64,000 bases of DNA from a virus. The stretch is from IMG/VR virus record IMGVR_UViG_3300022939_000007, positions 1 through 64,000 of that record, one strand, 5' to 3'. The notes beneath the pieces were generated by a model that searched no databases, was not told the origin of the DNA, and was given only the letters and a program-made list of their open reading frames with translations. Positions 14,882 to 30,657 of this stretch are shown piece after piece (position 1 is the stretch's first letter; each line of letters starts with the position of its first letter). Made by a program: the position numbers and the translations under genes.

Positions 14882-14898
14882 TATTATTGGAGAACATT

Positions 14899-15354
14899 AT
14901 GGAAGAAAAATATTCAGTGAAATTGGCTGAGTTGACACAGGAATCCGAAAAAGATATAAAAATAGATTACCTGAAATTAGCAGATGAAATTGTTCACAAT
15001 CAGAATTTGATTGGGAAGTGGATGACTCATCAACAAGTATACGAAATAAAATATCAGTTTTTAGAGATAGAACACAAAAAGCTTTTGGCAATAAAGACAA
15101 AGTACTATACAGGAAAAATGTCGGAAGATGAAATTGTGGCAAGAGGATGGGAAATTGAAGGAACAAAAATATTAAAATCTGATTTGAATATCTGGATAGA
15201 TGATGACGAAGAAATTATTAAATCTAAAAAAAATCTATTGATATTAAAACAGATAATAACTTTGATTGATAAAACCATTGATATTTTGATAGATCAAAAG
15301 AAATGGACTATCAAAAATTTTATTGATTATAAGAAATGGTTAGAAGGTAATTAA
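14899..15354 (+). CDS. uvsY: Recombination mediator UvsY
   Basis: A 151-residue helical, charged protein resembling UvsY: K-L-A-D-E-I...L-I-G-K-W near residue 35, then a Y-K-x-L-x-x-x-x-K-x-L-x-x-x-x-K-Y-Y-x-G motif. UvsY loads UvsX recombinase onto gp32-coated single-stranded DNA. It overlaps uvsW by one base (TAATG), matching the uvsY-uvsW pairing of T4-like phages. I took the ATG at 14899 because GGAG lies just upstream, instead of the earlier TTG. Confidence 0.8.
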   Translation: MEEKYSVKLAELTQESEKDIKIDYLKLADEIVHNQNLIGKWMTHQQVYEIKYQFLEIEHKKLLAIKTKYYTGKMSEDEIVARGWEIEGTKILKSDLNIWIDDDEEIIKSKKNLLILKQIITLIDKTIDILIDQKKWTIKNFIDYKKWLEGN

Positions 15355-16844
15355 TGAGCAAGTTTTATGTTCACAAACTAAACGAAGTGTATGTTCAAGT
15401 AGATTCCCCAGAACTTTTTATGTTGAAAGAACTGGTGGACTACTTTACCTTTAAGGTGCCTGGCGCTGAGTTTATGCCCGCATATAAGAATAAATATTGG
15501 GATGGAAAGATAAGACTTTTCAATCCTACTAATTGTAAGTTATACTTAGGCCTTGTTGAACAACTAAAATATTTTTGCGAAAAAAATGATTATGAAATAG
15601 AATATGATGAAGATTTACAAGATCAAAATTTTTCACCAAAAGATTTGGAAGCACTTGCAAAATTCATTAATCCACATAGTCAAGGAAAAAAAATTGAATA
15701 TAGAGATTATCAGTTAGATGCAATCTATCATGCAATCAAAAAAAATAGAACATTACTTCTTTCCCCGACAGCTTCTGGTAAATCACTCATCATTTATACT
15801 TTGGTAAGATTCTATAACATGCACCCAGAAGTAAAAGGAAAAAAAATTCTAATCATAGTTCCAACCACTTCACTAGTTTCGCAGATGTATGGTGATTTTG
15901 CCGATTATGGATGGGATGTAAATAAGTATTGTCATAAGATATTTGCTGGCCAAGAAAAATATACAGATAAAAAGGTAGTGATATCTACTTGGCAATCGAT
16001 ATACAAAATGCCGAGAGATTATTGGGATCAATTTGGAGTAGTGATTGGCGATGAATGTCACTTATTTAAAGCAAACTCTCTTAACAAAATCATGGATAGA
16101 TTAACAGAGTGTAGATTTAGATTTGGAACAACAGGAACATTAGATGGAACAAAAACTCATAAACTTATTCTTACAGGAATGTTTGGAGATGCAAAACAAG
16201 TCACATCTACAAGAAAGCTAATTGATAACAAAACTCTCGCAGATTTTAAAATACAATGTCTGGTACTAAAATATCCTATGGAGACATGTAAAGAAATCAA
16301 AAAACTGAAATATGCTGATGAGGTAGAATGGATTGTAACAAATCCTAGAAGAAATGAATTTATAAAAGACTTGACATTAAATCTAAAAGGTAATACACTA
16401 GTTCTTTACAATTTTGTAGAAAAACATGGAATACCTATGTACAAATTAATAAAGAATTCTGTAGAAGAAAATAGAAAAGTATTTTTTGTTTCTGGCTCAG
16501 TAAATGCAGAAATAAGAGAACAAATTAGAGCAACAACGGAAAAAGAAGATAATGCAATTATTATTGCATCTTATGGTACATTCTCTACTGGTGTAAACAT
16601 TCGTAATTTGCACAATGTTGTTTTCACATCTCCGTCAAAGAGTAGAATACGAAACTTGCAGTCTATAGGAAGAGGCCTCAGAAAAGGAAATAATAAAACA
16701 TCAGCAGTCTTATATGATATAGCTGACGATTTTCGTTATAAGAATTATATGAATTTTGCAATACGCCATTTTTACGAACGTATAAATATCTATAATGAAG
16801 AAAAGTTTTCGTTTAAAATAAATGAAATCAAATTATTTGGTTAG
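15354..16844 (+). CDS. uvsW: Recombination helicase UvsW
   Basis: A 496-residue superfamily 2 helicase. Visible motifs are Walker A (SPTASGKS, about residue 137), the DECH box (GDECH) and the C-terminal Q-S-I-G-R-G-L-R-K-G motif VI. UvsW unwinds R-loops and branched recombination intermediates and drives the switch from origin- to recombination-dependent replication in T4. The N-terminal domain (V-D-Y-F-T-F-x-V-P-G-A-x-F-M-P) matches the small UvsW N-terminal fold. Confidence 0.93.
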   Translation: MSKFYVHKLNEVYVQVDSPELFMLKELVDYFTFKVPGAEFMPAYKNKYWDGKIRLFNPTNCKLYLGLVEQLKYFCEKNDYEIEYDEDLQDQNFSPKDLEALAKFINPHSQGKKIEYRDYQLDAIYHAIKKNRTLLLSPTASGKSLIIYTLVRFYNMHPEVKGKKILIIVPTTSLVSQMYGDFADYGWDVNKYCHKIFAGQEKYTDKKVVISTWQSIYKMPRDYWDQFGVVIGDECHLFKANSLNKIMDRLTECRFRFGTTGTLDGTKTHKLILTGMFGDAKQVTSTRKLIDNKTLADFKIQCLVLKYPMETCKEIKKLKYADEVEWIVTNPRRNEFIKDLTLNLKGNTLVLYNFVEKHGIPMYKLIKNSVEENRKVFFVSGSVNAEIREQIRATTEKEDNAIIIASYGTFSTGVNIRNLHNVVFTSPSKSRIRNLQSIGRGLRKGNNKTSAVLYDIADDFRYKNYMNFAIRHFYERINIYNEEKFSFKINEIKLFG

Positions 16845-16851
16845 GAAACTC

Positions 16852-17253
16852 ATGCACGATTTCAAAATAGTCAGGCTATCAACAAAAGAAGTAATTATTT
16901 GTAAGACAAATTCTAAAAATGCGTCTGCAAGTTCAATTATTTTGGAAGATCCGTTTGAAATAAAATCGTTCATGAATCCTCAAACTGGAGACTTTAATTC
17001 AACTCTCATAGATTGGTTACAATATAGTGATGATACTATAGTAGAAGTTGCCGCGTACAATGTCATTGCAATGAATACACCTTCCCCAGAAATTATTGAC
17101 CATTATGAAATGATTTTAAGAAGAAAGGCTGCAGCTGCAAATTCTGAACTCAATGAAACTGAAGGGCCTGGATTAGAAGATGTTGATGAAGAACATGAAC
17201 ATACTATTGAAGAACTTATGAGAATGATAAACGGTAATAAAGTCTATCATTAA
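16852..17253 (+). CDS. Sm/Lsm-like small protein
   Basis: A 133-residue protein starting M-H-D-F-K-I-V-R-L-S-T-K-E-V-I-I-C-K. The opening strand with a G/K-E-(V/E)-I-I turn resembles Sm-fold proteins that are common in marine T4-like phages. Residues 40-85 carry the remaining strands (I-V-E-V-A-A-Y-N-V-I-A-M-N) and the tail is acidic. I use the ATG at 16852, which has AGGAAA upstream, over an earlier in-frame ATG inside uvsW. An analogous protein is encoded at 33457. RNA binding is inferred from the fold only. Confidence 0.5.
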   Translation: MHDFKIVRLSTKEVIICKTNSKNASASSIILEDPFEIKSFMNPQTGDFNSTLIDWLQYSDDTIVEVAAYNVIAMNTPSPEIIDHYEMILRRKAAAANSELNETEGPGLEDVDEEHEHTIEELMRMINGNKVYH

Positions 17254-17290
17254 GGGTCTACATACCCAGTATAACAGTAGAATCAACTTG

Positions 17291-17325
17291 TGTCAATAGA
17301 AAAAAAAATTTATTTTCTATTGACA
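17291..17325 (+). repeat. 13-bp perfect inverted repeat overlapping the gp55 promoter -35 box
   Basis: The arms TGTCAATAGAAAA and TTTTCTATTGACA are separated by 9 A/T bases. The right arm ends with the TTGACA of the following promoter. It may be an operator for a dimeric regulator, or an RNA hairpin of the upstream transcript. Confidence 0.8.
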
Positions 17326-17349
17326 AGAAACACTTTTTTATGGTATTAT
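17320..17349 (+). promoter_or_regulatory. Host-type (sigma-70) promoter for gp55
   Basis: TTGACA, an 18-base spacer, then TATTAT preceded by TGG (extended -10). It lies 30 bases before the gp55 start codon. Confidence 0.75.
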
Positions 17350-17378
17350 CTTTGTAATTGTATAAGGAATTATTATGT

Positions 17379-17930
17379 ATGGCTAAGAAAAGCACTAGAA
17401 ATCATTATGTAGATAACAAAAAGTTGTTGGAAGAGATGACAAAATATAAGGATGCCGTCAACCTTGCCGCTGAGCAGGACACAGAGCGCCCAAGAGTTCC
17501 AAATTATATTGGTGAGTGTATTATGAAGATTGCACAGCATCTCTCTTATAAACCCAATTTTATCAACTATACATATAAAGAAGAAATGATATCAGATGGT
17601 ATTGAAAATTGTCTATTGTATATTGATAATTTTAATCCAGAAAAATCAAAAAATCCATTCGCATATTTTACTCAGATTATTTACTATGCTTTCATTCGAA
17701 GGATTCAAAAAGAAAAGAAACAGACTTATGTAAAATATAAGGCATTGGAAAATCAAGAATTGATTGATGAAATTATGCAAGGACCAAATGGTAGTCCTAT
17801 GAAAAATAATTTCTTAGAATTTATTCACAATAATATGGATGATTTTCTTGCAGACTTTGAAGAAACCCAAAGAAAGAAAAAACAAAAAGCCAAGGAAAAG
17901 AGAGAAGGTAAGGAATCTGAAACTTCATGA
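17379..17930 (+). CDS. 55: Late-transcription sigma factor gp55
   Basis: A 183-residue minimal sigma factor: a region 2-like block with Y-K-E-E-M-I-S-D-G-I-E-N-C-L...N-F-N-P-E-K-S-K-N-P-F-A-Y-F-T-Q-I-I-Y-Y-A-F-I-R-R-I. It directs host RNA polymerase to TATAAATA late promoters together with the sliding clamp gp45. Start choice: TAAGGAA precedes the ATG at 17379; an overlapping ATG at 17375 is out of frame. It overlaps gp47 by 4 bases. Its own promoter carries an inverted repeat, so its timing may be specially controlled. Confidence 0.9.
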   Translation: MAKKSTRNHYVDNKKLLEEMTKYKDAVNLAAEQDTERPRVPNYIGECIMKIAQHLSYKPNFINYTYKEEMISDGIENCLLYIDNFNPEKSKNPFAYFTQIIYYAFIRRIQKEKKQTYVKYKALENQELIDEIMQGPNGSPMKNNFLEFIHNNMDDFLADFEETQRKKKQKAKEKREGKESETS

Positions 17931-18949
17931 AAATTGCACTGATTACGGACACTCACTTCGGCGCTAGAGGTGACTCCACACTTTTCCATGACTATTTTAT
18001 GGAATTTTATGATAATGTATTTTTTCCTTACTTGGAAAAGAATAATATTAAGACTGTAATTCATCTTGGAGATGTTACAGACCGAAGAAAGTTTATCAAC
18101 TATAATATTCTTGATGGCTTACGAAGTGGATTTATAAAGAAGATTAAAGACTATGACTCTTATTTTATTATTGGTAATCATGATGTGTATTATAAAAACA
18201 CAAATCGTATTAACTCTATGGAGCAACTTTTCGGGGATGATTTCAAGACTTATACAACGGCCACTACTCTTAATTTTGATGGGACTGACATTTGTTTTAT
18301 TCCTTGGATAAATTCTGAGAATTATGATGAAACTCTAAAACACATAAAGAAAACCAAAGCAAAAATTGCGTTAGGACATTTAGAACTGAATGGTTTTGAA
18401 ATGATGCGTGGTATCAAGTGTGAAGCTGGTATGTCTATTGAACACTTTAAAAAATTTGATTTGACTTGTTCTGGACATTTCCATCATAAAAGCAATCAAG
18501 GAGAAATTCATTATTTGGGAGCCCCATATGAATTATTTTGGAATGATTGTGATGATCCTAAAGGATTTCATATTTTAGATACGGGCTCAATGGAATTGCA
18601 GTTTGTTCAAAACCCACATCAAATGTTTCATAAGATTTATTATGATGAAAATAAAAAATATGATTTGTCAAAATATGAAAACAAATATGTAAAAATTATT
18701 GTTAAAAATAAAAGATCTCAATATAAGTTCGATACATTTGTTGACTCTTTATATAAGAAAGATGTTGCTGATTTATCTATTGTCGATGAAACAGATTTTC
18801 AGTTTGAAGAACAAAGTGATGTAGACACTACAAAAGACACTATGTCTCTTCTTACAAGTTATATCGATAATTATGAGATTGATGTTGACAAGAACAAACT
18901 AAAACAGATTATGCAAGATTTATATGTCTCTGCTTTGAGAGGTGATTGA
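17927..18949 (+). CDS. 47: Recombination endonuclease subunit gp47 (Mre11/SbcD-like)
   Basis: A 340-residue metallophosphoesterase with motifs T-D-T-H-F-G-A-R (residue 7), H-L-G-D-V-T-D-R-R, I-I-G-N-H-D and G-H-F-H. It pairs with gp46 to resect DNA ends and break down host DNA. The gene order gp55-gp47-gp46 is conserved in marine T4-like phages. Confidence 0.95.
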   Translation: MKIALITDTHFGARGDSTLFHDYFMEFYDNVFFPYLEKNNIKTVIHLGDVTDRRKFINYNILDGLRSGFIKKIKDYDSYFIIGNHDVYYKNTNRINSMEQLFGDDFKTYTTATTLNFDGTDICFIPWINSENYDETLKHIKKTKAKIALGHLELNGFEMMRGIKCEAGMSIEHFKKFDLTCSGHFHHKSNQGEIHYLGAPYELFWNDCDDPKGFHILDTGSMELQFVQNPHQMFHKIYYDENKKYDLSKYENKYVKIIVKNKRSQYKFDTFVDSLYKKDVADLSIVDETDFQFEEQSDVDTTKDTMSLLTSYIDNYEIDVDKNKLKQIMQDLYVSALRGD

Positions 18950-20664
18950 TGATTGAGTTTAAAACTATTAAATGGAAGAACTTTCTTTCCACTGGTAATT
19001 ATTTTACAGAAGTGCAACTAAACCGTTCATCTTCTACTCTTATTGTTGGTGAGAATGGAGCAGGAAAATCTACCATTTTGGATGCATTGACATTTGGTTT
19101 GTTTGGAAAATCTTTTAGAAAAATTAATAAACCACAGCTTATAAACTCTATAAACAATAAAGATGCTTTGATTGAGATTACCTTTAAAATTGGTAAGAAT
19201 GATTACTTGGTGCGCCGCGGTATCAAACCCAATATTTTTGAAATATGGGTAAATGGTAAAATGTTAGACCAAGATTCAAAAATTCGTGATAGCCAGATTT
19301 ATTTGGAAGAAAACATTCTCAAACTGAATTATAAGTCATTTACTCAAACTGTTATTTTGGGTAGTGCTACTTTTGTTCCTTTCATGCAACTTTCTGCAAT
19401 CGATAGAAGAGAAATTATTGAAGATATTTTGGATATAAAAATCTTTTCTGCAATGAATGAAATTCTAAAAGCAAAAATGGCTGCATTGAAAGAAACAATG
19501 ACAGAAAATGAAAAAAACCGTGAAGTCCAAGATTATAAGATTGAACTTCAAGAAAGAAATATTGAAGATGCAAAGACGACAAAGAAAACTGCGATTAATA
19601 CTTTTAAGAAAAAGATAAAAGAAAAGAAGGCTGAACAGAAACAGTGTATTGACAAAAATACAGAATTGCATGAACAAATATCAAATTTATTGGAAAAGAT
19701 TATACATGAAAGTAAAATATCTGATAGAAAGAAAAAACTTGAACGTCTAGAAACTAAACTCTCAAATAATGCAGAAAAAATACAAAACGACATCTCATGG
19801 TTTGAAGGCAATGATGTTTGTCCATCATGCCAACAAGATATTAATGAAGATCATAAGAATTGTATTGTGGAAGAGAAGGATAAGAAAAAGGAAGAAGTTT
19901 TGACAGCTGTTCAATCTTTGTCTGATGAATTGATTGAGATTGATTCTGAATTACATTATATTGAAGAAACCAAAACATCTATCACAAATCTTAATAATGT
20001 AGTTAGTTCTAATAATGATAAACATCAATATCTACAAAAAAATATTGATGAACTTGAGGCTGAAATAGAAGATGCGGAAAATAATAATACAAGCGTTTCT
20101 AAATTAGAAAAGGAATTAAAAGAGTTTAAAAAGATTTCCAAAGAGTTGGACAATGAACGCAAAACTCTTTCCGAAACAAAAAACTATCATGTGGTTGCAT
20201 CACAGTTTTTGAAGGACACTGGTGTAAAAACTTCTATTATAAAATACTATTTGCCAATAATGAACAAGTTAGTAAATAAGTATCTACAAGAAATGGATTT
20301 CTATATTAACTTCACAATGGATGAAAAGTTTAATGAGAATATTAAATCCAGAGGCAGAGAAGGATTTACATATAGTTCTTTTAGTGAAGGAGAGAAGATG
20401 AGAATTGACCTTGCTCTCTTGTTTACTTGGAGAGAGATTGCTCGAATGAAGAACAGTGTCAACACAAATCTTCTGATTCTTGATGAGGTGTTTGATAGTT
20501 CTTTGGATGCGACTGGTACAGACGAGTTTTTGAAGTTGTTGAACACATTAGGCGGCAACAATGTCTTTGTGATTTCACATAAAGGAGATATTCTATATGA
20601 TAAGTTTCACAGTGTGATTAAATTTGAAAAAGTAAAAAACTTTAGCCAAATTGAAAAAAATTGA
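18949..20664 (+). CDS. 46: Recombination endonuclease subunit gp46 (Rad50/SbcC-like)
   Basis: A 571-residue SMC-type ATPase. It has an N-terminal Walker A (GENGAGKST, about residue 36), a long central coiled coil with a zinc-hook C-P-S-C near residue 290, and a C-terminal signature F-S-E-G-E-K-M-R-I-D-L-A-L with Walker B L-L-I-L-D-E-V-F-D. It acts with gp47. The start ATG overlaps the gp47 stop (TGATG). Confidence 0.95.
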   Translation: MIEFKTIKWKNFLSTGNYFTEVQLNRSSSTLIVGENGAGKSTILDALTFGLFGKSFRKINKPQLINSINNKDALIEITFKIGKNDYLVRRGIKPNIFEIWVNGKMLDQDSKIRDSQIYLEENILKLNYKSFTQTVILGSATFVPFMQLSAIDRREIIEDILDIKIFSAMNEILKAKMAALKETMTENEKNREVQDYKIELQERNIEDAKTTKKTAINTFKKKIKEKKAEQKQCIDKNTELHEQISNLLEKIIHESKISDRKKKLERLETKLSNNAEKIQNDISWFEGNDVCPSCQQDINEDHKNCIVEEKDKKKEEVLTAVQSLSDELIEIDSELHYIEETKTSITNLNNVVSSNNDKHQYLQKNIDELEAEIEDAENNNTSVSKLEKELKEFKKISKELDNERKTLSETKNYHVVASQFLKDTGVKTSIIKYYLPIMNKLVNKYLQEMDFYINFTMDEKFNENIKSRGREGFTYSSFSEGEKMRIDLALLFTWREIARMKNSVNTNLLILDEVFDSSLDATGTDEFLKLLNTLGGNNVFVISHKGDILYDKFHSVIKFEKVKNFSQIEKN

Positions 20665-20674
20665 AAAAAAACTA

Positions 20675-20704
20675 TTGACGAACCATGCAGTAATGGTATA
20701 TACT
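20675..20704 (+). promoter_or_regulatory. Host-type promoter of the four-gene modification operon
   Basis: TTGACG followed by either TATATA (16-base spacer, preceded by TGG) or TATACT (18-base spacer), 11 bases after the gp46 stop. It is the only promoter-like site I see for the overlapping genes from 20747 to 24881. Confidence 0.65.
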
Positions 20705-20746
20705 GAGATAATACGTCACTCAAACTACATTAGAGGATTTTTTCAC

Positions 20747-22156
20747 ATGAATGAAGATGAAATAATTAATATTATCACAAATAGTAGTTTTCAAGATTTA
20801 CAAAAACTTAGGGTGGACTCTGACCACATATCACTTATTGAATTACCAGACATTTATGGTGCTCACCTATATTGCACTTTCATAAATTCTGGAGAGACAA
20901 TGGATAGATATTTTGGGTGGCATAAAGGTGAGTTTAATGGTACATACTATGGTTCGCCAGTTAAACATTCAAAAAAGTTCTGGTCAGATATGCGAAAGTA
21001 TCCTAGTTTAACTTTATGTTTTAATGTTGGAACTCCAAGAGATATGAATGTGAGGGAGGGTAAAATACTGAAGGCTATCGATGCAAAGTCTAATGAAAAG
21101 TTCTTCAATGAGAGCAATGGTGGTGGTGCATTAACTAAAGGTCAAAAATCAATTACTGCATTAGATAATATTGTTTATAACTTAGAAAAAAATGTATATC
21201 CAATTCAAAAAGTAGATAAACATAAACTCTATGCTATACAACCACACCAAGTAAGAGAAGTAATGGAAATACCTAATAAGGTGCAATCTATTCTTAATCA
21301 TATACTAGATACAAAAGGTAGATGGTTGGATGGAAATTTTCATTACGTTTTAATTCTTAAAGATTTCTATGGTAAAGATAAACATCTTAGGATAGGTAGT
21401 TTTCACACACTAAAAGCTTGTATGAAAACAGATTTTGTTGGTGAATTAGATGCTGTCTTTATACCGAAAAAAGATTGGATTAATTTAGACGAAACTGAAA
21501 TTAAAGATTTAGGACATACAGATAACAAAAGAGATGATAAGGTAAATGATTCTGTAAGTTTATCAGAGGCTATATCAAATGCCGTTTCTTTTATTAGAAA
21601 TAATAATATTGAAGACCATAAAGACCAAAGTGTAAAAGATAAATTCATGCGTTGGGGATTTACTAAAACTGAATGGGAAGCAACTATTAGAAAAACTTTA
21701 CGAAATACACTAAATGATAGTAAAGCAAAAAATGCAATACCACCCAATCATATTAAAAAAAGCTGGACTGAAAAAGAAAAGTCTCAGATGATTGAAAGAC
21801 ATACAGACGAGAATACTTTTGTTTTTATTTTATCCACAGCTTGGTGGTCAAATAGATGGGTAGGTTTTGACGCACTAATGAATATTGTAAAGAATGAGGA
21901 AGCATTTAAAAAAGATTATTGGAAAATATTCTGGTTAAATGAATCAGACACAGCGTTTTTAGATTGGAATAAGATAAAAACTAAAAAAGATGAAGAAGGT
22001 AATGTGGTTTTAAAACCAACAAGAAAAACTAATATTGAACATGATTTACAAATTTTGTTTTCAAAGTTTGCTGAAGATATTAGACCTATTCTTATTTTTG
22101 AAGATTTACCATATTCAGAACCTAACGAAATTAAAAATGATAAAAAAGTATCTTGA
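20747..22156 (+). CDS. GIY-YIG-like nuclease candidate, first gene of the modification operon
   Basis: A 469-residue protein of uncertain function. Residues 35-127 read like a divergent GIY-YIG fold: H-L-Y (40-42), Y-F-G (55-57), then Y-Y-G-S-P-V-K-H-S-K-K-F-W, a candidate catalytic Glu (R-E-G-K-I-L, E104) and F-F-N-E-S-N-G-G-G (N121). The middle and C-terminal parts are charged and unfamiliar. I chose the ATG at 20747, since earlier in-frame starts lie inside the promoter and AGAGGA sits 9 bases upstream. It overlaps the next gene by 20 bases. It could be a homing-type nuclease, or a nuclease that tests for the DNA modification. Confidence 0.45.
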   Translation: MNEDEIINIITNSSFQDLQKLRVDSDHISLIELPDIYGAHLYCTFINSGETMDRYFGWHKGEFNGTYYGSPVKHSKKFWSDMRKYPSLTLCFNVGTPRDMNVREGKILKAIDAKSNEKFFNESNGGGALTKGQKSITALDNIVYNLEKNVYPIQKVDKHKLYAIQPHQVREVMEIPNKVQSILNHILDTKGRWLDGNFHYVLILKDFYGKDKHLRIGSFHTLKACMKTDFVGELDAVFIPKKDWINLDETEIKDLGHTDNKRDDKVNDSVSLSEAISNAVSFIRNNNIEDHKDQSVKDKFMRWGFTKTEWEATIRKTLRNTLNDSKAKNAIPPNHIKKSWTEKEKSQMIERHTDENTFVFILSTAWWSNRWVGFDALMNIVKNEEAFKKDYWKIFWLNESDTAFLDWNKIKTKKDEEGNVVLKPTRKTNIEHDLQILFSKFAEDIRPILIFEDLPYSEPNEIKNDKKVS

Positions 22157-22997
22157 AAAACATATTAAAGATAATGTGTTAGATGAAGAAGTTAGTTTAC
22201 TATTAAGTGGTGGTCTTGATTCTATATCTGTTGGTATTTCTGCTGAACTAGTTGGGAAGAAAGTAAACGCATATAGTTTTTATCTTGAAGGTGTTCCTTC
22301 ATATGACTTTGCAATGGCTGCTAATATTGCATCACAAAGAGGTTGGAATTTTACTCCAGTAGTTGTTCCTACTACAAATCTTAATGAAGATTGGTTTAGA
22401 TTAGTTGATTTGGGTTGTAGAAAGAAAACTCATTTTGAGTGTGTATTTCCTTTCCTATATGTTTATCCAAAAATAAAAGAAAAGTATGTTCTTACTGGTT
22501 GGGGGGCGGATGGATACTTTGGACCAAGTAAAAAAGCTATGATGCGATATTCTAGTTATAGAAATAAAAAAAACTATGTTAAATATTGTAAAGAACACAA
22601 TCAAAAAAGATTGAACTGGAACGAATTCAGACTTGAATATCTTGATGGAGACTGTGCTGGTTACAAAGAACACACAACCCTTGCGGAAAAACATGATAAG
22701 ATACACATAGCACCATATAAAGATAGTAAAGATATTAGAAAAGAATTGATGAATAAGAGTTGGACAGAGTTAAATACACCCAGACAAAAAGAAATTATAA
22801 GAAAAGACTTTACAATACTAAAAAAGTATGGTAATATAAAGCCACATATAAATTTACACCTCGGTTCTGGTATAGATAAATTGTTTGAAACTTTTTTGAA
22901 AGACTCGACAATTAATTTCAATAATAGAAAAAGAATAATGGATGTTTGTAAAGATTGGTATAAAAATCCGAATAGTTTGAGAAGGTATAATATATGA
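22137..22997 (+). CDS. Asparagine-synthetase-like ATP-dependent amidating enzyme (no glutaminase domain)
   Basis: A 286-residue N-type PP-loop enzyme. The ATP-binding motif S-G-G-L-D-S is at residues 24-29. The second asparagine-synthetase-type motif G-W-G-A-D-G-Y-F-G is near residue 117. Enzymes of this family adenylate a carboxylate and join it to ammonia or an amine. The N-terminal glutamine amidotransferase domain of AsnB is absent, so nitrogen would come from free ammonia or another amine. The gene overlaps its upstream neighbour by 20 bases and the DNA methyltransferase by 4. Context suggests a carboxylate on modified DNA as substrate; that is inference. Confidence 0.7.
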   Translation: MIKKYLEKHIKDNVLDEEVSLLLSGGLDSISVGISAELVGKKVNAYSFYLEGVPSYDFAMAANIASQRGWNFTPVVVPTTNLNEDWFRLVDLGCRKKTHFECVFPFLYVYPKIKEKYVLTGWGADGYFGPSKKAMMRYSSYRNKKNYVKYCKEHNQKRLNWNEFRLEYLDGDCAGYKEHTTLAEKHDKIHIAPYKDSKDIRKELMNKSWTELNTPRQKEIIRKDFTILKKYGNIKPHINLHLGSGIDKLFETFLKDSTINFNNRKRIMDVCKDWYKNPNSLRRYNI

Positions 22998-24190
22998 GTT
23001 ATACACCATATAATTTACAAGATGTTTATGATGCATCTGAACAGAACAAATTTAAAGTGATTTCAACTTTTGCCGGTGGTGGTGGATCTTCCACTGGCTA
23101 TCGTCTTGCTGGTGGTAAGGTTCTTGCAGTAAATGAGTTTGTAGAAGAGGCATGTAATACCTATAAAGAAAACTATCCAGAGACACCTATTCTGCCTGGC
23201 GATATTAAAGAATTGACTGGGCAACATTTCTTGGATGCAGCTGGAGTAAAAGTTGGGGAGATAGATATTCTGGATGGTTCTCCGCCATGTTCTGCGTTTT
23301 CTGTGGCAGGCAAACTATCTCATAATAGTATTGAAACTGAATACTTAGATTTTGATGGTAATGTTATGACACGCAAAGAAAGTGGTAAACATTCTGATGG
23401 ATGGGGTCAAACTAAAAAGTATTCTGATGGAAAGATAGTTGAAAATATTGAAGATTTGTTTTTTGATTTTCTGAGAATTGCTGATGAAATAAAACCAAAA
23501 GTAATCATTGCAGAAAATGTTAAGGGATTGACTGTTGGAGAAGCAAAAAACTATCTTAATCAAATACTCAATAGATTCGAGGAAATTGGATATAATATTT
23601 CGTATCAAGTTTTGGATAGTAGATATTTTGGAGTTTCGCAGACTCGAACCAGATGTATTTTTATTGGAGTAAGACAGGACATTGCCGATCAAGTTGGCTT
23701 GAACTTTATGACAATTCAAAATGTTTTTCCAACTCCAGATTTGAAAACAATTCCTCTGAAAGATGCTTTGATTGGTTTAGAATATGATGATGAAGAAATT
23801 TCTTATCTTACTGAAAAGTTTTCTAATACTGCATATTGGAAACAAACTGGTAGTATAATGCCCGTTGATCCAGATAAAGTTCTAACAGGAGGCGATTATC
23901 ACCCGAAAGGACACCACTTTAACTTGAAAAGAGTATCACAGTATGCTCCAGCACCGACCTTAACCGCTATGGGGAGTGCTGATACTACTGCTGGTGCATT
24001 CCACTGGGCAGAACCTAGAAAGTTGACCCTCGGCGAGCTGAAGCGCATTATGTCACTTCCAGATGACTTTAAACTTACTGGAAAATGGAATCAAAAAGCA
24101 GAAAGAATTGGAAGGATGGTTCCGCCACTGATGATGAAAAGAATTGCAGAATCTGTATATAAAAATGTTTTGGAGAAATATAATGGCTGA
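22994..24190 (+). CDS. C5-cytosine DNA methyltransferase with Arg in motif X (candidate carboxymethyltransferase)
   Basis: A 398-residue C5-cytosine methyltransferase with motif I F-A-G-G-G-G-S-S-T-G (26-35), catalytic motif IV S-P-P-C-S-A-F-S (Cys99), motif VI E-N-V (174-176) and motif VIII Q-T-R-T-R (216-220). Motif X normally reads G-N-(S/A)-V; here it reads I-G-R-M-V-P-P with Arg374. The Asn-to-basic change at this position is the one I recall from engineered M.MpeI variants that accept carboxy-SAM instead of SAM. The next gene encodes a CmoA-like protein. It may thus place 5-carboxymethylcytosine in DNA. The methyltransferase identity is firm; the donor is inferred. Confidence 0.9.
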   Translation: MSYTPYNLQDVYDASEQNKFKVISTFAGGGGSSTGYRLAGGKVLAVNEFVEEACNTYKENYPETPILPGDIKELTGQHFLDAAGVKVGEIDILDGSPPCSAFSVAGKLSHNSIETEYLDFDGNVMTRKESGKHSDGWGQTKKYSDGKIVENIEDLFFDFLRIADEIKPKVIIAENVKGLTVGEAKNYLNQILNRFEEIGYNISYQVLDSRYFGVSQTRTRCIFIGVRQDIADQVGLNFMTIQNVFPTPDLKTIPLKDALIGLEYDDEEISYLTEKFSNTAYWKQTGSIMPVDPDKVLTGGDYHPKGHHFNLKRVSQYAPAPTLTAMGSADTTAGAFHWAEPRKLTLGELKRIMSLPDDFKLTGKWNQKAERIGRMVPPLMMKRIAESVYKNVLEKYNG

Positions 24191-24881
24191 TTTCACATTT
24201 GCACACCGCGAAGAAGGTTTTGATGAACATATTGATAAAAGTATTAGAGGTTATGGAGATTTGTTGGATGATGTAATTTCTCTATCAAGATACTTTGTGG
24301 AAGATGGTACTAATGTTTATGATATTGGATGTTCAACTGGTAAACTGACTCAACGAATGTTGGAGGCAAATCAGGATTTTTGTTATGATGCAAATTATAT
24401 TGGTATTGAAGTTGCAAATGGATTTTATGATGATATGATAAAAAGACAGGAGCATATCAGATCAATACACCCTTGGGTCCGTGTTGATTTTAGACATGAA
24501 GATGTAAGAGACACTGAATTTGAAAATGCCTCTTTAATTACTTCAATATTTACTTTGCAGTTTATGTCAAAAATTGATCGGCGATTTACTATTCAAAGAA
24601 TTCATGATGGATTGAATGAAGGTGGCGGTTTTATTTTTGCAGAAAAAACTATTTGTCAAAATGCAAATTTTCAAGACATGCTCACATTTAATTATTATGA
24701 TTTCAAAAGAAAATCTTTTGATACAGAAGATATTATGAATAAAGAAAGAACTCTTAGAAACATGTTGAAACCAAACACTTGGCAAGAAATAAATGAAATG
24801 ATGTGGGACGCAGGTTTTGAAGATGTCCAACCTTTCTGGAGAAATCATATGTTTGTTGGAGCAATTGCCATAAAAAAATAA
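24183..24881 (+). CDS. CmoA-like carboxy-S-adenosyl-methionine synthase
   Basis: A 232-residue class I SAM-binding protein that follows E. coli CmoA nearly end to end: F-D-E-H-I-D-K-S-I-R-G-Y, V-Y-D-I-G-C-S-T-G (45-53), I-E-V-A-N-G-F-Y-D-D-M-I, E-N-A-S-L-I-T...F-T-L-Q-F (114-127), G-G-F-I-F-A-E-K, D-F-K-R (173-176), then A-G-F-E-D. CmoA converts SAM and prephenate to carboxy-SAM for tRNA wobble uridine modification. The region of the carboxylate-binding Arg (R199 in E. coli) reads K-E-R here, so the Arg may be shifted by one. It overlaps the methyltransferase by 8 bases. No CmoB is present in the window. Confidence 0.72.
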   Translation: MADFTFAHREEGFDEHIDKSIRGYGDLLDDVISLSRYFVEDGTNVYDIGCSTGKLTQRMLEANQDFCYDANYIGIEVANGFYDDMIKRQEHIRSIHPWVRVDFRHEDVRDTEFENASLITSIFTLQFMSKIDRRFTIQRIHDGLNEGGGFIFAEKTICQNANFQDMLTFNYYDFKRKSFDTEDIMNKERTLRNMLKPNTWQEINEMMWDAGFEDVQPFWRNHMFVGAIAIKK

Positions 24882-24889
24882 AAAGGCCC

Positions 24890-24918
24890 TTGACAAAACT
24901 GATTCGTTCCTGTAGCAT
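24890..24918 (+). promoter_or_regulatory. Host-type promoter before CobT-like gene
   Basis: TTGACA, 17-base spacer, TAGCAT, 9 bases after the CmoA-like stop codon. Confidence 0.65.
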
Positions 24919-24956
24919 GTAAATATAAGTGATGATTCCTATGAAGGAAATATGTG

Positions 24957-27329
24957 ATGTCAAATGTTCTATTTACAAAGAACTCCAAAAGTCTCCTAGC
25001 CAAACTGATGGCAGAAGAAGACCTTACGGTTCAACATCGTAAAGTTGAAACCGCGTTTTTTGACGTTGAAAAACGTCTATTAGTTGTACCAATTTGGAAA
25101 GATATGTCCGATAACCTTTATGACTTGTTTATGGGTCATGAAGTTGGACATGCTTTATATACTCCAGCGGATACAGAAGTTCTCCAAGAAGCAATCGACC
25201 GTTCCAACAAAGACTTTGTAAACGTAGTCGAAGATGCTCGTATTGAGAAAATGATGAAAATAAAATTCCCTGGCTTGCGGGCTCCTTTCTACAAAGGATA
25301 TCAAGAGTTAAATGAGCGAGATTTCTTTGGGACAAATAATAAAGAAATTTCTACCTTTTCTTTCATTGACCGTATCAATCTGTTTTACAAATCTTCAATG
25401 AATGATTTTGAGTTTAACATGATATTTTCAGAAGAAGAAAAACCTCTTGTGAAGAAAGTTGGAAAAACAGAAACTTTCGAAGAAGTTGCAGCTGTTGCAG
25501 AAGAGATTTACAACTTCATCAAAGATAAAGTTCAAAATCGTCAAGAACAGAATTCCCAACAAAGTGGTGGTGAAGGTTCTGGTGAACAATCTCAAAATTC
25601 AGAAATGTCAGAACTAAAAGATGACAATTCACACTCTTCTTCATCTTCTCAAACTGAAACTGAAAATGAAGAAGAAAATCAAACGGATGGTTCTGGTGAT
25701 GGCGGTTCTTCTGATGATACAGGTGAAGATGAACAAAATTCACAAGAATCTGGTAGTTCTTCTAATTCTTCTGATGACGAATCTGATGGAGAAAATGGAA
25801 AATCTTATACATCAGCTGAAGAAGAACAAAATGCAAATGATGTTGCATCATTGGGTGGTGGAAGTGGTTTCTCTGACCCTGATGAATTTTCCTCTAAAAC
25901 TGACAATTCAATGTCAGAAAATATGTCACAAATGATTGATCGTATGGCAGATAATATTGAATATTACACATTATCTGATTTAAATCTGAAAGATCATGTG
26001 ATAAGTCATGATATGATTCATGATGCAATCGATGCGGCCAAAACTTATTTTTACAATAACTCAGATTGGACTAGTTTTGCAAAAAATAATGTAGACAAGA
26101 TTTCTCTTTACAAAAAAGTATTGAGTGATAACAACGCTACTATAAACTATCTTGTAAAAGAATTTGAAATGAAAAAATCTGCACAAGAATATGCAGCGAG
26201 TTATGAAACAAAATCTGGAAATCTGAATACCAGCAAAATTTGGAGTTACAAACTAAATGATGATATCTTCAAACGTAAATCGATTACTCCAGAAGGCAAA
26301 AATCATGGCATGGTAATGATGGTCGATTGGTCGGGTTCTATGCACTCTATGTTATATAAGACCGTTGTTCAAACTGTTGTCCTTGCCACATTTTGTAAAC
26401 GTGTTGGAATTCCTTTTGATGTTTACAATTTCTCTGATCAAAACCGAGATTATGATGATGGTAAAAAGTTGTTTGCCGATAAAAAGAACGGTGTTTATAA
26501 CAATCGGACATTTATCTATAATAATGTTAAACTTCATCATGTTCTCAGCAGTTCAATGAAAAAATCAGAATTTATCAGGGCATGTAACAACTATCTGTTT
26601 TTGGCTTGGGGATTGAACAATTGTTATGGATTGATGCGTTCTAACAAATTGCCTCATAATGTCGATCTTCAGCTTGGTGGAACTCCTCTAAATCAAAGTT
26701 TGATGATTCTTGACAAAGTTGTTCATGAATTCAAACGGAAACATTCTGTAGAAAAAATGAACTTTGTTGTTTTGAGTGATGGTGCTGCCGGCGATACAAT
26801 TGAGATAGTTGATGAAAATTCTGGTTGGCATCGTTCAGTTGCAGCAACCTGGCGGCATCATCCCAAAACTTCTGTGGTTTATCATGAGCGTTCAAAAAAG
26901 ACTTTCGTTCATCAACAAGGTTATCGTTCTAAAAATAAAAATGCAAAAAATCCTACTGAGTTTCTTGTCGAAACAATGAAAGAAGTTCATGGTGCAAAAT
27001 CGATTGGATTTTACATTATAGACCGTACTTATGATCTAAATAACGCAATTCGGGCATATGTATTTCGGGATCGTGATGGATACCATATGTATAATAACGA
27101 ACTTTCAAAAGTTCGTTCAGAGTGTCGCAAAAATGGGTTTTATGCAGCAAAAGATTGTGGGTATGATGAATACTATATTCTTGATATGCGTACTCAAAAT
27201 GAAGATAGTGAACTTGAAGTTGATGAAAATATGACAAAAGCAAAAATTGCCAAACAGTTTTCAAAATTCCAAGGTTCAAAGAAAACCAGTCGGCAAATGT
27301 TAAATAAATTTGTCGATATCGTGAAGTAA
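24957..27329 (+). CDS. CobT-like protein: HExxH metallopeptidase-like and VWA domains
   Basis: A 790-residue protein. The N-terminus has a zinc-peptidase motif H-E-V-G-H (61-65) and a downstream V-V-E-D-A-R-I-E that could supply the third ligand. Residues about 180-310 are a Ser/Glu/Asp/Gly-rich linker. The C-terminal half is a von Willebrand A domain with MIDAS motif D-W-S-G-S-M and later L-S-D-G-A. Phage genes of this pair are often labelled cobalt chelatase CobT/CobS. MoxR/VWA pairs act more generally as metal- or complex-remodelling chaperones. No AGA codon is used for Arg, unlike its neighbours. Start: second codon of the GTG-ATG pair. Confidence 0.65.
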   Translation: MSNVLFTKNSKSLLAKLMAEEDLTVQHRKVETAFFDVEKRLLVVPIWKDMSDNLYDLFMGHEVGHALYTPADTEVLQEAIDRSNKDFVNVVEDARIEKMMKIKFPGLRAPFYKGYQELNERDFFGTNNKEISTFSFIDRINLFYKSSMNDFEFNMIFSEEEKPLVKKVGKTETFEEVAAVAEEIYNFIKDKVQNRQEQNSQQSGGEGSGEQSQNSEMSELKDDNSHSSSSSQTETENEEENQTDGSGDGGSSDDTGEDEQNSQESGSSSNSSDDESDGENGKSYTSAEEEQNANDVASLGGGSGFSDPDEFSSKTDNSMSENMSQMIDRMADNIEYYTLSDLNLKDHVISHDMIHDAIDAAKTYFYNNSDWTSFAKNNVDKISLYKKVLSDNNATINYLVKEFEMKKSAQEYAASYETKSGNLNTSKIWSYKLNDDIFKRKSITPEGKNHGMVMMVDWSGSMHSMLYKTVVQTVVLATFCKRVGIPFDVYNFSDQNRDYDDGKKLFADKKNGVYNNRTFIYNNVKLHHVLSSSMKKSEFIRACNNYLFLAWGLNNCYGLMRSNKLPHNVDLQLGGTPLNQSLMILDKVVHEFKRKHSVEKMNFVVLSDGAAGDTIEIVDENSGWHRSVAATWRHHPKTSVVYHERSKKTFVHQQGYRSKNKNAKNPTEFLVETMKEVHGAKSIGFYIIDRTYDLNNAIRAYVFRDRDGYHMYNNELSKVRSECRKNGFYAAKDCGYDEYYILDMRTQNEDSELEVDENMTKAKIAKQFSKFQGSKKTSRQMLNKFVDIVK

Positions 27330-27338
27330 AAAATGAAA

Positions 27339-27357
27339 AGCCCTTGACAAAAGGGCT
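27339..27357 (+). repeat. 7-bp inverted repeat enclosing part of a promoter -35 box
   Basis: AGCCCTT, five-base loop, AAGGGCT. The TTGACA of the CobS promoter straddles the left arm and loop. It could also act as a weak terminator for the upstream gene, but no T run follows. Confidence 0.65.
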
Positions 27358-27372
27358 ATCATTTGATACCAT
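27344..27372 (+). promoter_or_regulatory. Host-type promoter before CobS/MoxR-like gene
   Basis: TTGACA, 17-base spacer, TACCAT, 48 bases before the start codon. Confidence 0.65.
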
Positions 27373-27420
27373 AATAATGTAATTGATGATTCGTGAAACC
27401 TTCCAAGTGGAGAATATATA

Positions 27421-28581
27421 ATGTGGAATAAAACGAAAAAAATTGAGTTTCTTACGAAACTCATGGCAGAAAGTGGTTCTGTTGTTTCCAAACAAGAAAT
27501 CAAGTCGGCGGCTTCCGCTTTTGGTGAAGCAAGTCCACAATGGATGTGGAAACCAGAATTTCGAGCCGGACATGGTAAATATGATATTTCAAAATATGCA
27601 ATGAAACTCACTGGTAATGTAGTCCAGATGAAACCAGTTGCACAAACAGTGACTGCTGTTCCTACTACAGTAGTTTTGCCTGAACGTCATATCGATTCTC
27701 TCGTTCCAGAGAAAGATCCTAACTTTGTGAAATTTGGATTTTACAATGATTTGAAAACTATCCTTCAATCAAAAATGTTTTATCCTGTTTTCATTACTGG
27801 TTTGTCTGGTAACGGTAAAACTTATGGAACACAACAACTTTGTGCCCAACTAAATCGTGAATGTATCACGGTTCCTATTACAATCGAAACTGATGAATCT
27901 GACCTTCTTGGCGACAAAACTCTTGTTGATGGTAATGTTCTGTTTTCTCAGGGCCCTGTAATTGACGCAATGGAACGTGGCGCAGTTCTTATTCTTGATG
28001 AAGTTGACCTTGCATCAAATAAAATTATGTGTTTGCAATCCATTATTGATGGTAAAGGTGTTTACCTCAAAAAAGATAATCGGTTTGTAAAACCAGCTCC
28101 CGGCTTTACTGTGATTGCTACAGCAAACACAAAAGGTAAAGGTTCTGATGATGGACGTTTCATTGGTACTAATGTAATGAACGAGGCGTTTCTTGAGCGT
28201 TTCAAAATTACATTTGAACAAGAATATCCCAATCAATCAGTTGAGAAAAAAATTCTCAGCAACCATCTGCAATCTTGCAAAGGTTCTGTTACTGATGAAG
28301 ATGTGTCGGTGATTGAAAATCTTACGGTTTGGGCATCTGCCATTCGTAAAACCTTTGAAGAGGGTGGGATTGATGAAATCATTTCGACTCGGCGTTTGGT
28401 TCACATTGTAGAAACATTCTCTATCTTTGGAAATGTTTTGAAGGCTGTTGAACTTTGTACAAATCGTTTTGATGATGATACGAAAGCATCATTTGTAGAT
28501 CTATTTTCCAAAATTTATGGCGGAGAAGAAATCAATGAAACTGAAACTGAAGAAACATATGAAGAGGAAGTACCCTTTTGA
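27421..28581 (+). CDS. CobS/MoxR-type AAA+ ATPase
   Basis: A 386-residue AAA+ ATPase with Walker A G-L-S-G-N-G-K-T (about residue 124), Walker B V-L-I-L-D-E-V-D, sensor 1 A-T-A-N-T and an arginine finger region L-E-R-F. This is the MoxR/CobS branch, which works with a VWA partner such as the protein encoded just upstream. CobS-like genes are recurrent in T4-like cyanophages, where a role in cobalamin synthesis has been proposed. Arg codons are CGT, CGG or CGA, as in its partner, supporting joint acquisition. Confidence 0.8.
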   Translation: MWNKTKKIEFLTKLMAESGSVVSKQEIKSAASAFGEASPQWMWKPEFRAGHGKYDISKYAMKLTGNVVQMKPVAQTVTAVPTTVVLPERHIDSLVPEKDPNFVKFGFYNDLKTILQSKMFYPVFITGLSGNGKTYGTQQLCAQLNRECITVPITIETDESDLLGDKTLVDGNVLFSQGPVIDAMERGAVLILDEVDLASNKIMCLQSIIDGKGVYLKKDNRFVKPAPGFTVIATANTKGKGSDDGRFIGTNVMNEAFLERFKITFEQEYPNQSVEKKILSNHLQSCKGSVTDEDVSVIENLTVWASAIRKTFEEGGIDEIISTRRLVHIVETFSIFGNVLKAVELCTNRFDDDTKASFVDLFSKIYGGEEINETETEETYEEEVPF

Positions 28582-28883
28582 TAGACTATAAATTCAATGA
28601 AGATGTATTGCTCGAAGAAGTTCGAGCATACATTGATAAGACCTACGAAGGTCATTATTCTAAAAACACATACCAATCAACTGAAGTAATCATGGGCAGA
28701 GGACATGGTGAAGGTTTTTGTATGGGCAATATAGACAAATACTCTAATCGATATGGTAAAAAAGGTTCCACAGAAGATTGGAGAAAAGACTTGCTTAAAA
28801 TCATTCATTATGGTATACTGGCTTTATATAATCATGATATGACTTATGGAGAAAATGATGAGCATCAATCTGAAACATTCTGA
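28578..28883 (+). CDS. DUF3310-like small protein
   Basis: A 101-residue protein with the pattern H-Y-S-K-N-x-Y-Q-S-T-E-V-I...G-F-C-M-G-N-I-D-K-Y-S-N-R-Y-G-K-K-G and a closing D-L-L-K-I-I-H-Y. The G-N-I-x-K-Y-x-x-R-Y...K-G core is that of DUF3310 proteins, widespread in phages and without a proven function. The start is a TTG overlapping the ATPase stop (TTGA); no earlier ATG exists in frame. Confidence 0.6.
   Translation: MIDYKFNEDVLLEEVRAYIDKTYEGHYSKNTYQSTEVIMGRGHGEGFCMGNIDKYSNRYGKKGSTEDWRKDLLKIIHYGILALYNHDMTYGENDEHQSETF
28791..28819 (+). promoter_or_regulatory. Possible host-type promoter for the clamp gene cluster
   Basis: TTGCTT, 17-base spacer and TATACT with an extended TGG, inside the end of the DUF3310-like gene. 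It is the only likely site between the ATPase gene and gp45. Confidence 0.45.
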
Positions 28884-29019
28884 TAACTTGGATCGAGACT
28901 ATAAAAAACTCAGCAAGGGCAGAAAAGAATATGTCAAAAAAATGGCATCAAAACAAAAACAAACTATTTCTAATTACTTGAATTCTAAATATGGAGAAAT
29001 TGAAAATGAAATTGAGTGA
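28855..29019 (+). CDS. Small basic/acidic helical protein (54 aa)
   Basis: A short ORF starting ATG-ATG, overlapping the DUF3310-like gene by 29 bases and the clamp gene by 14. The product is Lys-rich, with a helical stretch (D-N-L-D-R-D-Y-K-K-L-S-K-G-R-K) and an acidic end. It fills the space between its neighbours and lies downstream of a candidate promoter. I do not recognise the family. Confidence 0.4.
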   Translation: MMSINLKHSDNLDRDYKKLSKGRKEYVKKMASKQKQTISNYLNSKYGEIENEIE

Positions 29020-29704
29020 GCAAACGCAAAATATATTGAAGAATTATTCGACTATTAATCAGTCAATTTACTTGAAAAAAGGAAGTCGATTATCCACTAT
29101 TTCTGTTATGAGAAACATTTTATCAGCAACTGATGTAAGTGAAGAATTTCCAGTAGATTTTTGCATTTATGATTTGGGAAAATTTCTAAATCTTTTGAAG
29201 ATTTATCCAGAACTAGATTTTCATGATAAGTTTGTCATGATGAGCAATGGAGCAAAGACATATAAATTTATGGCTGCCGAACCATCTATTATTGTCTATG
29301 TTGAGAATACCTTTGAATTAGAAGGAAGCGACAACAATCCAGAAGGATCGAAACCTTCGCCGGATTGGGATATTAATGTAAAGCTTCCAAATTCTACACT
29401 ACATACTATCAATCAAGTGGCATCCATTTCTGGACTTCCTGATTATTCATTGTCAACAAAAGACGATGGAGTTGTTTATTTTTGTGCATTGGATAAAAAA
29501 GATGATACATCCAATGTTGCTGAAGAACCAGTTGGTGAATCAAATGCAACATTTAATATGTACTTCCGTTCAGAAAACCTAAAGCTAATCGAAGGTGATT
29601 ATGATGTAGGGATTTCTAAAAATAAAATCTCAACTTTCCGACACCAGAAATTGCCAATTCAATATTGGATTACACTTGAACAAGATTCGACTTATGGGGA
29701 GTAA
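29006..29704 (+). CDS. 45: Sliding clamp gp45
   Basis: A 232-residue trimeric processivity clamp. The N-terminus M-K-L-S-E-Q-T-Q-N-I-L-K-N-Y-S-T-I-N parallels T4 gp45, which fixes the start at 29006 rather than at the in-frame ATG at 28991. It tethers gp43 to DNA and also activates late transcription with gp55. It is followed by the clamp loader genes and regA in the standard order gp45-gp44-gp62-regA. Confidence 0.93.
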   Translation: MKLSEQTQNILKNYSTINQSIYLKKGSRLSTISVMRNILSATDVSEEFPVDFCIYDLGKFLNLLKIYPELDFHDKFVMMSNGAKTYKFMAAEPSIIVYVENTFELEGSDNNPEGSKPSPDWDINVKLPNSTLHTINQVASISGLPDYSLSTKDDGVVYFCALDKKDDTSNVAEEPVGESNATFNMYFRSENLKLIEGDYDVGISKNKISTFRHQKLPIQYWITLEQDSTYGE

Positions 29705-29706
29705 GT

Positions 29707-30657
29707 ATGGACAATTTTTTATGGGTAGAAAAATATCGTCCATCCGATATCGATAATTGTATTCTAACTGATGAACTAAAATCAACATTCAAAGAGTTTG
29801 TTGATACAGGAAGTTTACCCAATCTCCTATTGTCTGGCGGGCCAGGTGTTGGTAAAACAACTCTGGCTCGTGCCTTGTGCAATGAGATGAAAATGGACTA
29901 TATCTTAATCAACGGTTCCGAAGATAGTGGTATTGATGTTCTAAGAAATAAGATTCGAAACTATGCATCAACTGTAAGTTTTGATACTGGAAATAGTAAA
30001 GAATTTGGAAAGGTTATCATTTTAGACGAAGCGGATTATCTAAATCCACAATCAACTCAGCCCGCTCTGCGTGGATTCATTGAAGAGTTTTCTGGTAATT
30101 GTAGATTTATTCTTACATGCAATTTCAAGAATCGTATCATTGAACCACTGCATAGTAGATGTTCTCTTGTAGAATTTAAAATCAAAAAATCCGACAAACC
30201 AAAATTGGCAGGAACTTTTTTCAATAGAGTAAAAACTATTCTTGATAAAGAAAATATTTCTTATAAAGAAAAGGTGGTTGTGGAACTTGTAATGAAACAT
30301 TTTCCAGATTGGAGAAGAGTCTTAAATGAACTCCAGAGATATTCTGTTGGTGGTGAAATAGATGAAGGCCTTCTAACTGATGTGGGAGAGGTAAATATAA
30401 ACAAACTCACATCGGCGATGAAGGATAAGAATTTCACAGAGATTAGAGGATGGACAACTCAGAACTTGGATAATGATCCAAATACTTTATATAGAAAAAT
30501 CTATGATGGACTGTATGAACACGCAGAACCATCTTCAATTCCTCAAGCAGTTGTGACTATTGCAGACTATTCATACAAGTCTGCATTTGTTGCCGATCAA
30601 GAAATAAATCTTGTGGCGTGTTTGACAGAGTTGATGATGGAGTGTGATTGGAAATGA
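29707..30657 (+). CDS. 44: Clamp loader large subunit gp44
   Basis: A 316-residue AAA+ protein: an N-terminal W-V-E-K-Y-R-P segment, Walker A G-G-P-G-V-G-K-T-T (about residue 45), Walker B I-I-L-D-E-A-D and an S-R-C sensor motif (L-H-S-R-C-S-L). Four gp44 subunits and one gp62 load the gp45 clamp onto primed DNA. Two bases separate it from gp45. Confidence 0.95.
   Translation: MDNFLWVEKYRPSDIDNCILTDELKSTFKEFVDTGSLPNLLLSGGPGVGKTTLARALCNEMKMDYILINGSEDSGIDVLRNKIRNYASTVSFDTGNSKEFGKVIILDEADYLNPQSTQPALRGFIEEFSGNCRFILTCNFKNRIIEPLHSRCSLVEFKIKKSDKPKLAGTFFNRVKTILDKENISYKEKVVVELVMKHFPDWRRVLNELQRYSVGGEIDEGLLTDVGEVNINKLTSAMKDKNFTEIRGWTTQNLDNDPNTLYRKIYDGLYEHAEPSSIPQAVVTIADYSYKSAFVADQEINLVACLTELMMECDWK

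Follow-up and report, generated by a model that had tools for sequence, protein, structure and literature searches.

The closest described counterpart of the locus analysed here is the CmoA/CmoX/CmoY pathway of Synechococcus phage S-B43, which was published by Yang et al. in Nature Communications in December 2025 (PMC12783734). In this pathway, CmoA forms carboxy-S-adenosylmethionine (Cx-SAM) from S-adenosylmethionine (SAM) and prephenate; CmoX, a homologue of C5-cytosine methyltransferases (MTases), uses Cx-SAM to carboxymethylate cytosine in GC motifs, giving 5-carboxymethylcytosine (5cxmC); and CmoY, an asparagine-synthetase homologue, ligates glycine onto 5cxmC (PMC12783734). Our literature search on CmoX found nothing beyond that paper. 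The subject of the present analysis is an operon of four genes in a stretch of 64,000 nucleotides (hereafter the window; positions 1 to 64,000 of IMG/VR virus record IMGVR_UViG_3300022939_000007), which very probably, as judged from its sequence, encodes a CmoA-CmoX-CmoY cytosine hypermodification system of a T4-like phage.

Like the S-B43 system, the operon (Table 1) has overlapping genes in a T4-like phage and encodes CmoA, CmoX and CmoY, with both the catalytic Cys and the Arg for Cx-SAM binding in CmoX, whereas the gene order is ORF1-cmoY-cmoX-cmoA in the window and cmoA-cmoY-cmoX in S-B43. Further differences are that CmoY of the window falls into a separate clade marked by an insertion, that CmoX of the window carries an insertion of 17 residues after motif IV, and that an open reading frame (ORF) for a protein with GIY-YIG-like and ParB-fold domains, ORF1, lies upstream in the window, while the S-B43 locus as annotated has none. 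Synechococcus phage S-CRM01 likewise has adjacent cmoA and cmoX genes with the critical Arg (57-61% identity) but no ligase annotated next to them. The engineered enzyme M.MpeI N374K, as far as it is cited in PMC12783734, also accepts Cx-SAM through a basic residue at the Asn position of motif X, but it is an engineered enzyme with a CG target, whereas the Arg of the window CmoX is natural. The bacterial CmoA/CmoB pathway for uridine 5-oxyacetic acid (cmo5U) in tRNA has in common with the window a CmoA homologue and Cx-SAM chemistry; the initial annotation had remarked on the missing CmoB, and indeed there is none among the genes neighbouring the operon, whose acceptor would be a DNA cytosine.

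Table 1. Features of the operon; positions are those of the window except where residue numbers are given
Feature	Position	Strand	Remarks
Promoter match TTGACG-18-TATACT	20675-20704	+	Sigma-70-like; weak pattern match before ORF1
Exchange cassette (ORF1 + cmoY)	20714-22979	+	Replaced as a block in phage L011
ORF1	20747-22156	+	469 aa; ATG at 20747, stop at 22154-22156
ORF1 domains	residues ~39-125; ~150-300; thereafter		GIY-YIG-like; ParB/sulfiredoxin-like; C-terminal part
cmoY homologue	22137-22997	+	286 aa counted from ATG 22137; asparagine-synthetase-like ATP-dependent amide ligase
cmoX homologue	22994-24190	+	398 aa; putative C5-cytosine DNA carboxymethyltransferase
Catalytic Cys99 (SPPC motif)	23288-23290	+	Aligns with S-B43 Cys98
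Arg374 (codon AGG)	24113-24115	+	Aligns with S-B43 Arg350 and HhaI Asn304; by equivalence, probable binder of the Cx-SAM carboxylate
cmoA homologue	24183-24881	+	232 aa; predicted carboxy-SAM synthase
K-E-R codons in cmoA	24741-24749	+	Aligned to E. coli CmoA K198-R199-S200; S-B43 has K-E-K

The present analysis establishes which genes these are, their order and linkage, the residues diagnostic of each enzyme and the action of purifying selection, and by analogy with S-B43 the encoded enzymes would perform the same steps. CmoA would produce carboxy-SAM from SAM and prephenate, CmoX would carboxymethylate C5 of cytosine, probably in GpC, by means of Cys99 and Arg374, and CmoY would cap the resulting 5cxmC as an amide by joining an amine to it. 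The modification may protect the phage DNA from restriction. The initial annotation had proposed that the phage makes carboxy-SAM and transfers its carboxymethyl group to cytosine C5, and this part stands because the S-B43 homologues do so and the critical Arg is conserved; its proposal of 5cxmC as the final base is not supported, CmoY being present, and its expectation that a natural system of this kind would be new has been overtaken by the publication of December 2025 (PMC12783734).

The four overlapping, co-directional genes described initially are borne out by the ORF coordinates, the overlaps being 20 nt between ORF1 and cmoY, 4 nt (ATGA) between the cmoY stop and the cmoX start, and 8 nt between the cmoX stop and the cmoA start. 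Because the four-gene block is identical in three further metagenome records, the operon is not an assembly accident, and because the ratios of nonsynonymous to synonymous substitution (dN/dS) indicate purifying selection (0.195 for ORF1 against locus L090 and 0.07-0.10 for cmoY, cmoX and cmoA against relatives), all four genes look functional.

The third gene had been assigned to the C5-cytosine MTases, and this assignment is firm: the protein matches Pfam DNA_methylase (4.8e-58), shows the catalytic motif SPPC within a C5-MTase fold, matches in the PDB the structure of S-B43 CmoX with Cx-SAM (8yf3, E 9.2e-141) and is 62% identical to S-B43 CmoX across 368 aligned residues (tblastn 58.3%). 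The changed donor-site motif noticed at that time is also real, since motif X reads G-R-M-V-P-P as against G-N-A-V-P in HaeIII, and Arg374 occupies the place where ordinary C5-MTases have Asn. In 8yf3, Arg350 of CmoX touches the Cx-SAM carboxylate, and HhaI has Asn304 there; S-B43 CmoX accepts Cx-SAM only, and its R350N mutant uses neither SAM nor Cx-SAM (PMC12783734). The translation of S-B43 CmoX places Arg and Cys exactly at 350 and 98. Among 115 relatives, the donor-site column holds Arg in 110 and Leu in one, while four sequences end before the site, so that Arg is present in 110 of the 111 covered; the sole Leu belongs to the MTase of a Melnitz phage, which adjoins a TET-like oxygenase. 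Of more distant phage MTases beside a CmoA homologue, those of PaBG and TurkishDelight have the donor-site Arg. Met takes this place in the MTase of Flavobacterium phage FPSV-S2, in whose vicinity no CmoA is annotated. In the small Moraxella phage Mcat8 (L136, 2941-4648), an Arg-bearing CmoX-like MTase is followed by an unannotated gene that we recognised by eye as CmoA-like.

The fourth gene had been said to follow CmoA along its length, which is confirmed by its end-to-end match to TIGR00740 (4e-34, residues 2-231) and by its match to the E. coli CmoA structure 4gek (7.7e-28); moreover, the protein shares 61% identity with S-B43 CmoA, whose activity was shown by experiment, across 228 aligned residues (tblastn 60.7%). 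We also searched IMG/VR, which yielded 235 stretches with genes for relatives of the window CmoX, and kept 80 of them; linkage was counted over 61 distinct CmoX proteins, requiring at least 800 bp downstream (55 proteins) or at least 900 bp upstream (51 proteins). CmoA lies downstream of CmoX in 54 of the 55, and the recurrence of the gene pair in other genomes, for which the initial annotation had suggested a search, is evident. The CmoX loci published so far number 5,615. An ordinary MTase producing 5-methylcytosine, next to a CmoA that works as a SAM-dependent methyltransferase in some unrelated role, would agree with the placement of both proteins in generic methyltransferase families by Pfam and with a CmoA score under the curated equivalog cut-off, but we regard this combination as highly improbable in view of Arg374 in place of Asn (S-B43 CmoX with that Arg cannot use SAM), the near-universal CmoX-CmoA linkage and the 61-62% identity to biochemically proven enzymes.

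The second gene, which was overlooked in the initial annotation, is cmoY. Its product matches Pfam Asn_synthase (1e-10), is 46% identical to S-B43 CmoY across 255 aligned residues (tblastn 41.2%) and consists of the asparagine-synthetase C-domain with the ATP motif SGG(L/V)DS and, like S-B43 CmoY, without the glutaminase domain; its AlphaFold model has a mean predicted local distance difference test (pLDDT) score of 91.6, and the top Foldseek matches of the model are beta-lactam, carbapenam and asparagine synthetases. Because this gene encodes an amide ligase, the end product of the operon is probably an amide of 5cxmC. That the system instead ends at free 5cxmC, with CmoY inactive or in another role, would be consistent with related loci that carry cmoX-cmoA pairs without cmoY (e.g., L018-L022) and with the linkage counts, in which cmoY is found upstream of CmoX for 33 of the 51 distinct proteins and no recognised cmoY adjoins cmoX in the other 18. 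We consider this improbable for the window, where cmoY overlaps cmoX, keeps SGG(L/V)DS and is under purifying selection; furthermore, co-expressed S-B43 CmoY consumed all 5-carboxymethyldeoxycytidine (5cxmdC), and S-B43 virion DNA contains the glycine amide only, free 5cxmC being absent (PMC12783734). Separately, a second asparagine-synthetase-like gene was found immediately upstream of cmoY in L030 (178-1068) and also in L031 and L042, and this doubling suggests two ligations, successive or alternative.

Several points weigh against reading the operon as a CmoA-CmoX-CmoY system. The window CmoA scores 118.4 bits against TIGR00740, under the curated equivalog cut-off of 193.3; S-B43 CmoA also falls under it with 115.6 bits, and because the latter is a proven enzyme, the curated cut-off leaves out the active phage clade. 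In E. coli CmoA, Arg199 binds the carboxymethyl group through a salt bridge (PMC3663124), but the phage CmoA proteins do not keep this residue: Glu fills the aligned column in 100 of 106 rows, the next residue being mostly Arg or Lys, and the helix alignment has a one-residue register ambiguity at this place, with Glu of the window protein in the column and its Arg adjacent. The K-E-R residues had been given as a caveat in the initial annotation, and we considered them as a disqualifying feature and rejected this, because S-B43 CmoA is active with K-E-K; its kcat (turnover number) is 10 times that of E. coli CmoA (PMC12783734). The caveat accordingly appears to fall away, K-E-R as such being no argument against CmoA activity. 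A third point is found in a Staphylococcus phage (SPbeta-like; L139, 4947-6646), in which the MTase adjoining CmoA resembles HhaI, carries Gly at the donor site and reads SPC for SPPC; this pair shows that linkage to CmoA is possible without the donor-site Arg, and its MTase may be a divergent carboxymethyltransferase of a kind overlooked by the published SPPC/Arg filter. Fourthly, the GpC target of the window CmoX is extrapolated from a target-recognition region similar to that of S-B43 CmoX. Finally, with 46% identity and an insertion of about 20 residues, the amine used by CmoY could differ.

This last point deserves attention, because attachment of an amine other than glycine would make the end product a new base. 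The insertion, which follows SKKAMMRYS, is specific to the clade of the window CmoY; the published survey predicts amines other than glycine for some clusters (PMC12783734), and the exchange of the ORF1 + cmoY block for an S-B43-type pair, described below, would be expected if the ligase products differ. The core fold residues are, on the other hand, common to both CmoY clades, the window type and the S-B43 type, and we take a different amine as a quite plausible outcome without favouring it.

The exchange was found by comparison with phage L011, whose flanks are 99.1% identical to the window over 14795-20713 and 98.8% over 22980-30878 (about 14 kb in total). Between these two flanks, positions 20714-22979 of the window gave no blastn match to L011; there, L011 positions 5920-7985 replace ORF1 and cmoY exactly with an unrelated gene and an S-B43-type CmoY, and cmoX and cmoA are kept. 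The position directly upstream of cmoY/cmoX is a hypervariable slot: in most loci it holds a gene of about 300-560 codons, and the slot genes fall into at least 10 families mutually without BLAST similarity, while in a few loci a common gene of the neighbourhood, e.g. gp46 or the DNA polymerase gene, stands there. We considered whether each slot family is bound to one CmoY clade and rejected this, because L013 (5108-6139), L016 (5363-6595) and L017 (6238-7170) have three unrelated slot genes beside CmoY proteins that are 100% identical; the slot can thus also change by itself. The L017 slot protein resembles an adenine MTase (NPPF motif). By eye, the slot proteins of L049, L058, L053, L062 and L071 seem to consist of a DUF262/ParB-like part and a C-terminal HNH-like part, and they recall GmrSD/BrxU-type nucleases. 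Several slot families are ParB-like, in agreement with the published remark that ParBc proteins are frequent near CmoX loci, their function being left unexplained (PMC12783734).

The occupant of the slot in the window, ORF1, gave no significant match by itself against Pfam, PHROG and NCBIfam, and its domains became visible only through alignment of its relatives, which match PHROG profiles of a homing endonuclease (7.7e-11) and a ParB-like protein (7.6e-7) and Pfam ParB_N (8e-4). In the GIY-YIG-like part, Y42, Y55, E104, N121 and N124 are invariant among 26 sequences of the family, which accords with the Tyr pair of GIY/YIG and with its catalytic Glu and Asn, and the model has the element order beta-beta-alpha-beta-alpha; no invariant Arg corresponding to the helix-1 Arg typical of GIY-YIG was found in the same alignment. 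The structural model is modest (pLDDT 76.5; predicted template modelling score, pTM, 0.42) and leaves the relations of the domains and the C-terminal third unestablished. Its top Foldseek rows (NSF/Sec18, template modelling score 0.12) were rejected as artefacts of the low pTM, and we limited the Foldseek evidence to compact matches, namely ParB 6t1f and sulfiredoxin (probability 1.00, E 2-3e-3, weak for the window protein by itself) and viral ParB and viral GIY-YIG proteins. The ORF1 profile found no match among PDB sequences, ORF1 matched none of the PADLOC defence models, and no relatives were found in bacterial and archaeal genomes, so that there is no cellular restriction system for comparison.

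Relatives of ORF1 also occur near TET/JBP-like oxygenases, and the family therefore appears to be tied to pyrimidine hypermodification broadly and not to carboxymethylation alone. In L098, L104-L107, L109 and L110, they lie in large clusters with a TET/JBP-like oxygenase, which are candidate pyrimidine hypermodification clusters and in which we recognised by eye genes for P-loop kinase, pyrophosphorylase-like, amidoligase-like, glutamine amidotransferase (GATase) and GNAT proteins. In Methylophilales phage Melnitz-3 (L002, 4010-7552), the C5-MTase with the donor-site Leu precedes a gene that by eye encodes a TET/JBP-like oxygenase, and an ORF1 relative comes next, which gives the ORF1 family a second modification context.

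We read ORF1 as an accessory protein of the operon with GIY-YIG-like and ParB-fold domains. Its most likely role would be that of a nuclease able to tell DNAs apart by their modification, a hypothesis outside the confidence given above for the operon; regulation by nucleoside triphosphates (NTPs) is a hypothetical addition. The modification-dependent nucleases GmrSD, BrxU and SspE (DUF262/ParB-like with a nuclease part) combine a ParB-like fold with a nuclease-like domain as ORF1 and some slot proteins do. ORF1 differs from them in that its nuclease-like domain is of the GIY-YIG type and that it is encoded by a phage beside modification genes. A serious rival is that ORF1 is a selfish, homing-endonuclease-like gene at an exchange boundary with no part in modification. 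Its N-terminal domain groups with SegE/homing GIY-YIG domains, the slot genes differ between near-identical phages, and nuclease genes are known at inter-phage exchange boundaries (PMC10448857); against this, the family recurs beside unlike pyrimidine-modification clusters (CmoX and TET/JBP-like), many families without mutual relationship occupy the slot, including several that are ParB-like, and ORF1 lies inside the operon with a ParB-fold domain in the same protein. We regard the selfish origin as possible but somewhat doubtful. A more far-reaching proposal, which we put forward as unlikely but worth stating, is that the phage carries a restriction-modification system whose chemistry can be interchanged: CmoX and CmoA would supply a fixed carboxylate handle, the ligase of the cassette would pick the amide, and the cognate ORF1 nuclease would spare that amide and cut host or rival phage DNA without it; the amide of the window would then not be glycyl-5cxmC.

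Concerning the genomic setting, the operon comes after the T4-like gp47/gp46 pair (17927-20664) and is followed by a large ORF starting at 24954. The source virus record has 99,763 bases, and its matches to terminase, tail sheath, major head protein, DNA polymerase and sliding clamp identify the source as a T4-like myovirus; a search of the whole-locus DNA against phage records found nothing at the megablast level. The initial annotation had placed all four genes under one promoter. This is no more than plausible: the sigma-70-like match is in the right gap, a short distance before the exchange boundary (20713/20714), but the frequency of such matches in this AT-rich region (18 observed as against 23.1 +/- 4.4 in shuffles) is not above chance. 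Apart from the operon, the window encodes a second DNA methylase at 59762-60502 (Pfam N6_N4_Mtase, 8.9e-32) and, at 53200-55425, a protein resembling B12-dependent (class II) ribonucleotide reductase, for which the Pfam matches are weak.

Because the core chemistry has already been published, the operon of the window is not a discovery but a further member with good support, which also offers a natural test case. New and useful is the finding that two phages about 99% identical over flanks of about 14 kb differ by exactly ORF1 and cmoY. This precise swap makes two questions directly testable, namely which amines the other CmoY clades use and what role the ParB-fold proteins near CmoX have, and the remaining interest of the locus lies in ORF1, in the swap itself and in the possible other amine.

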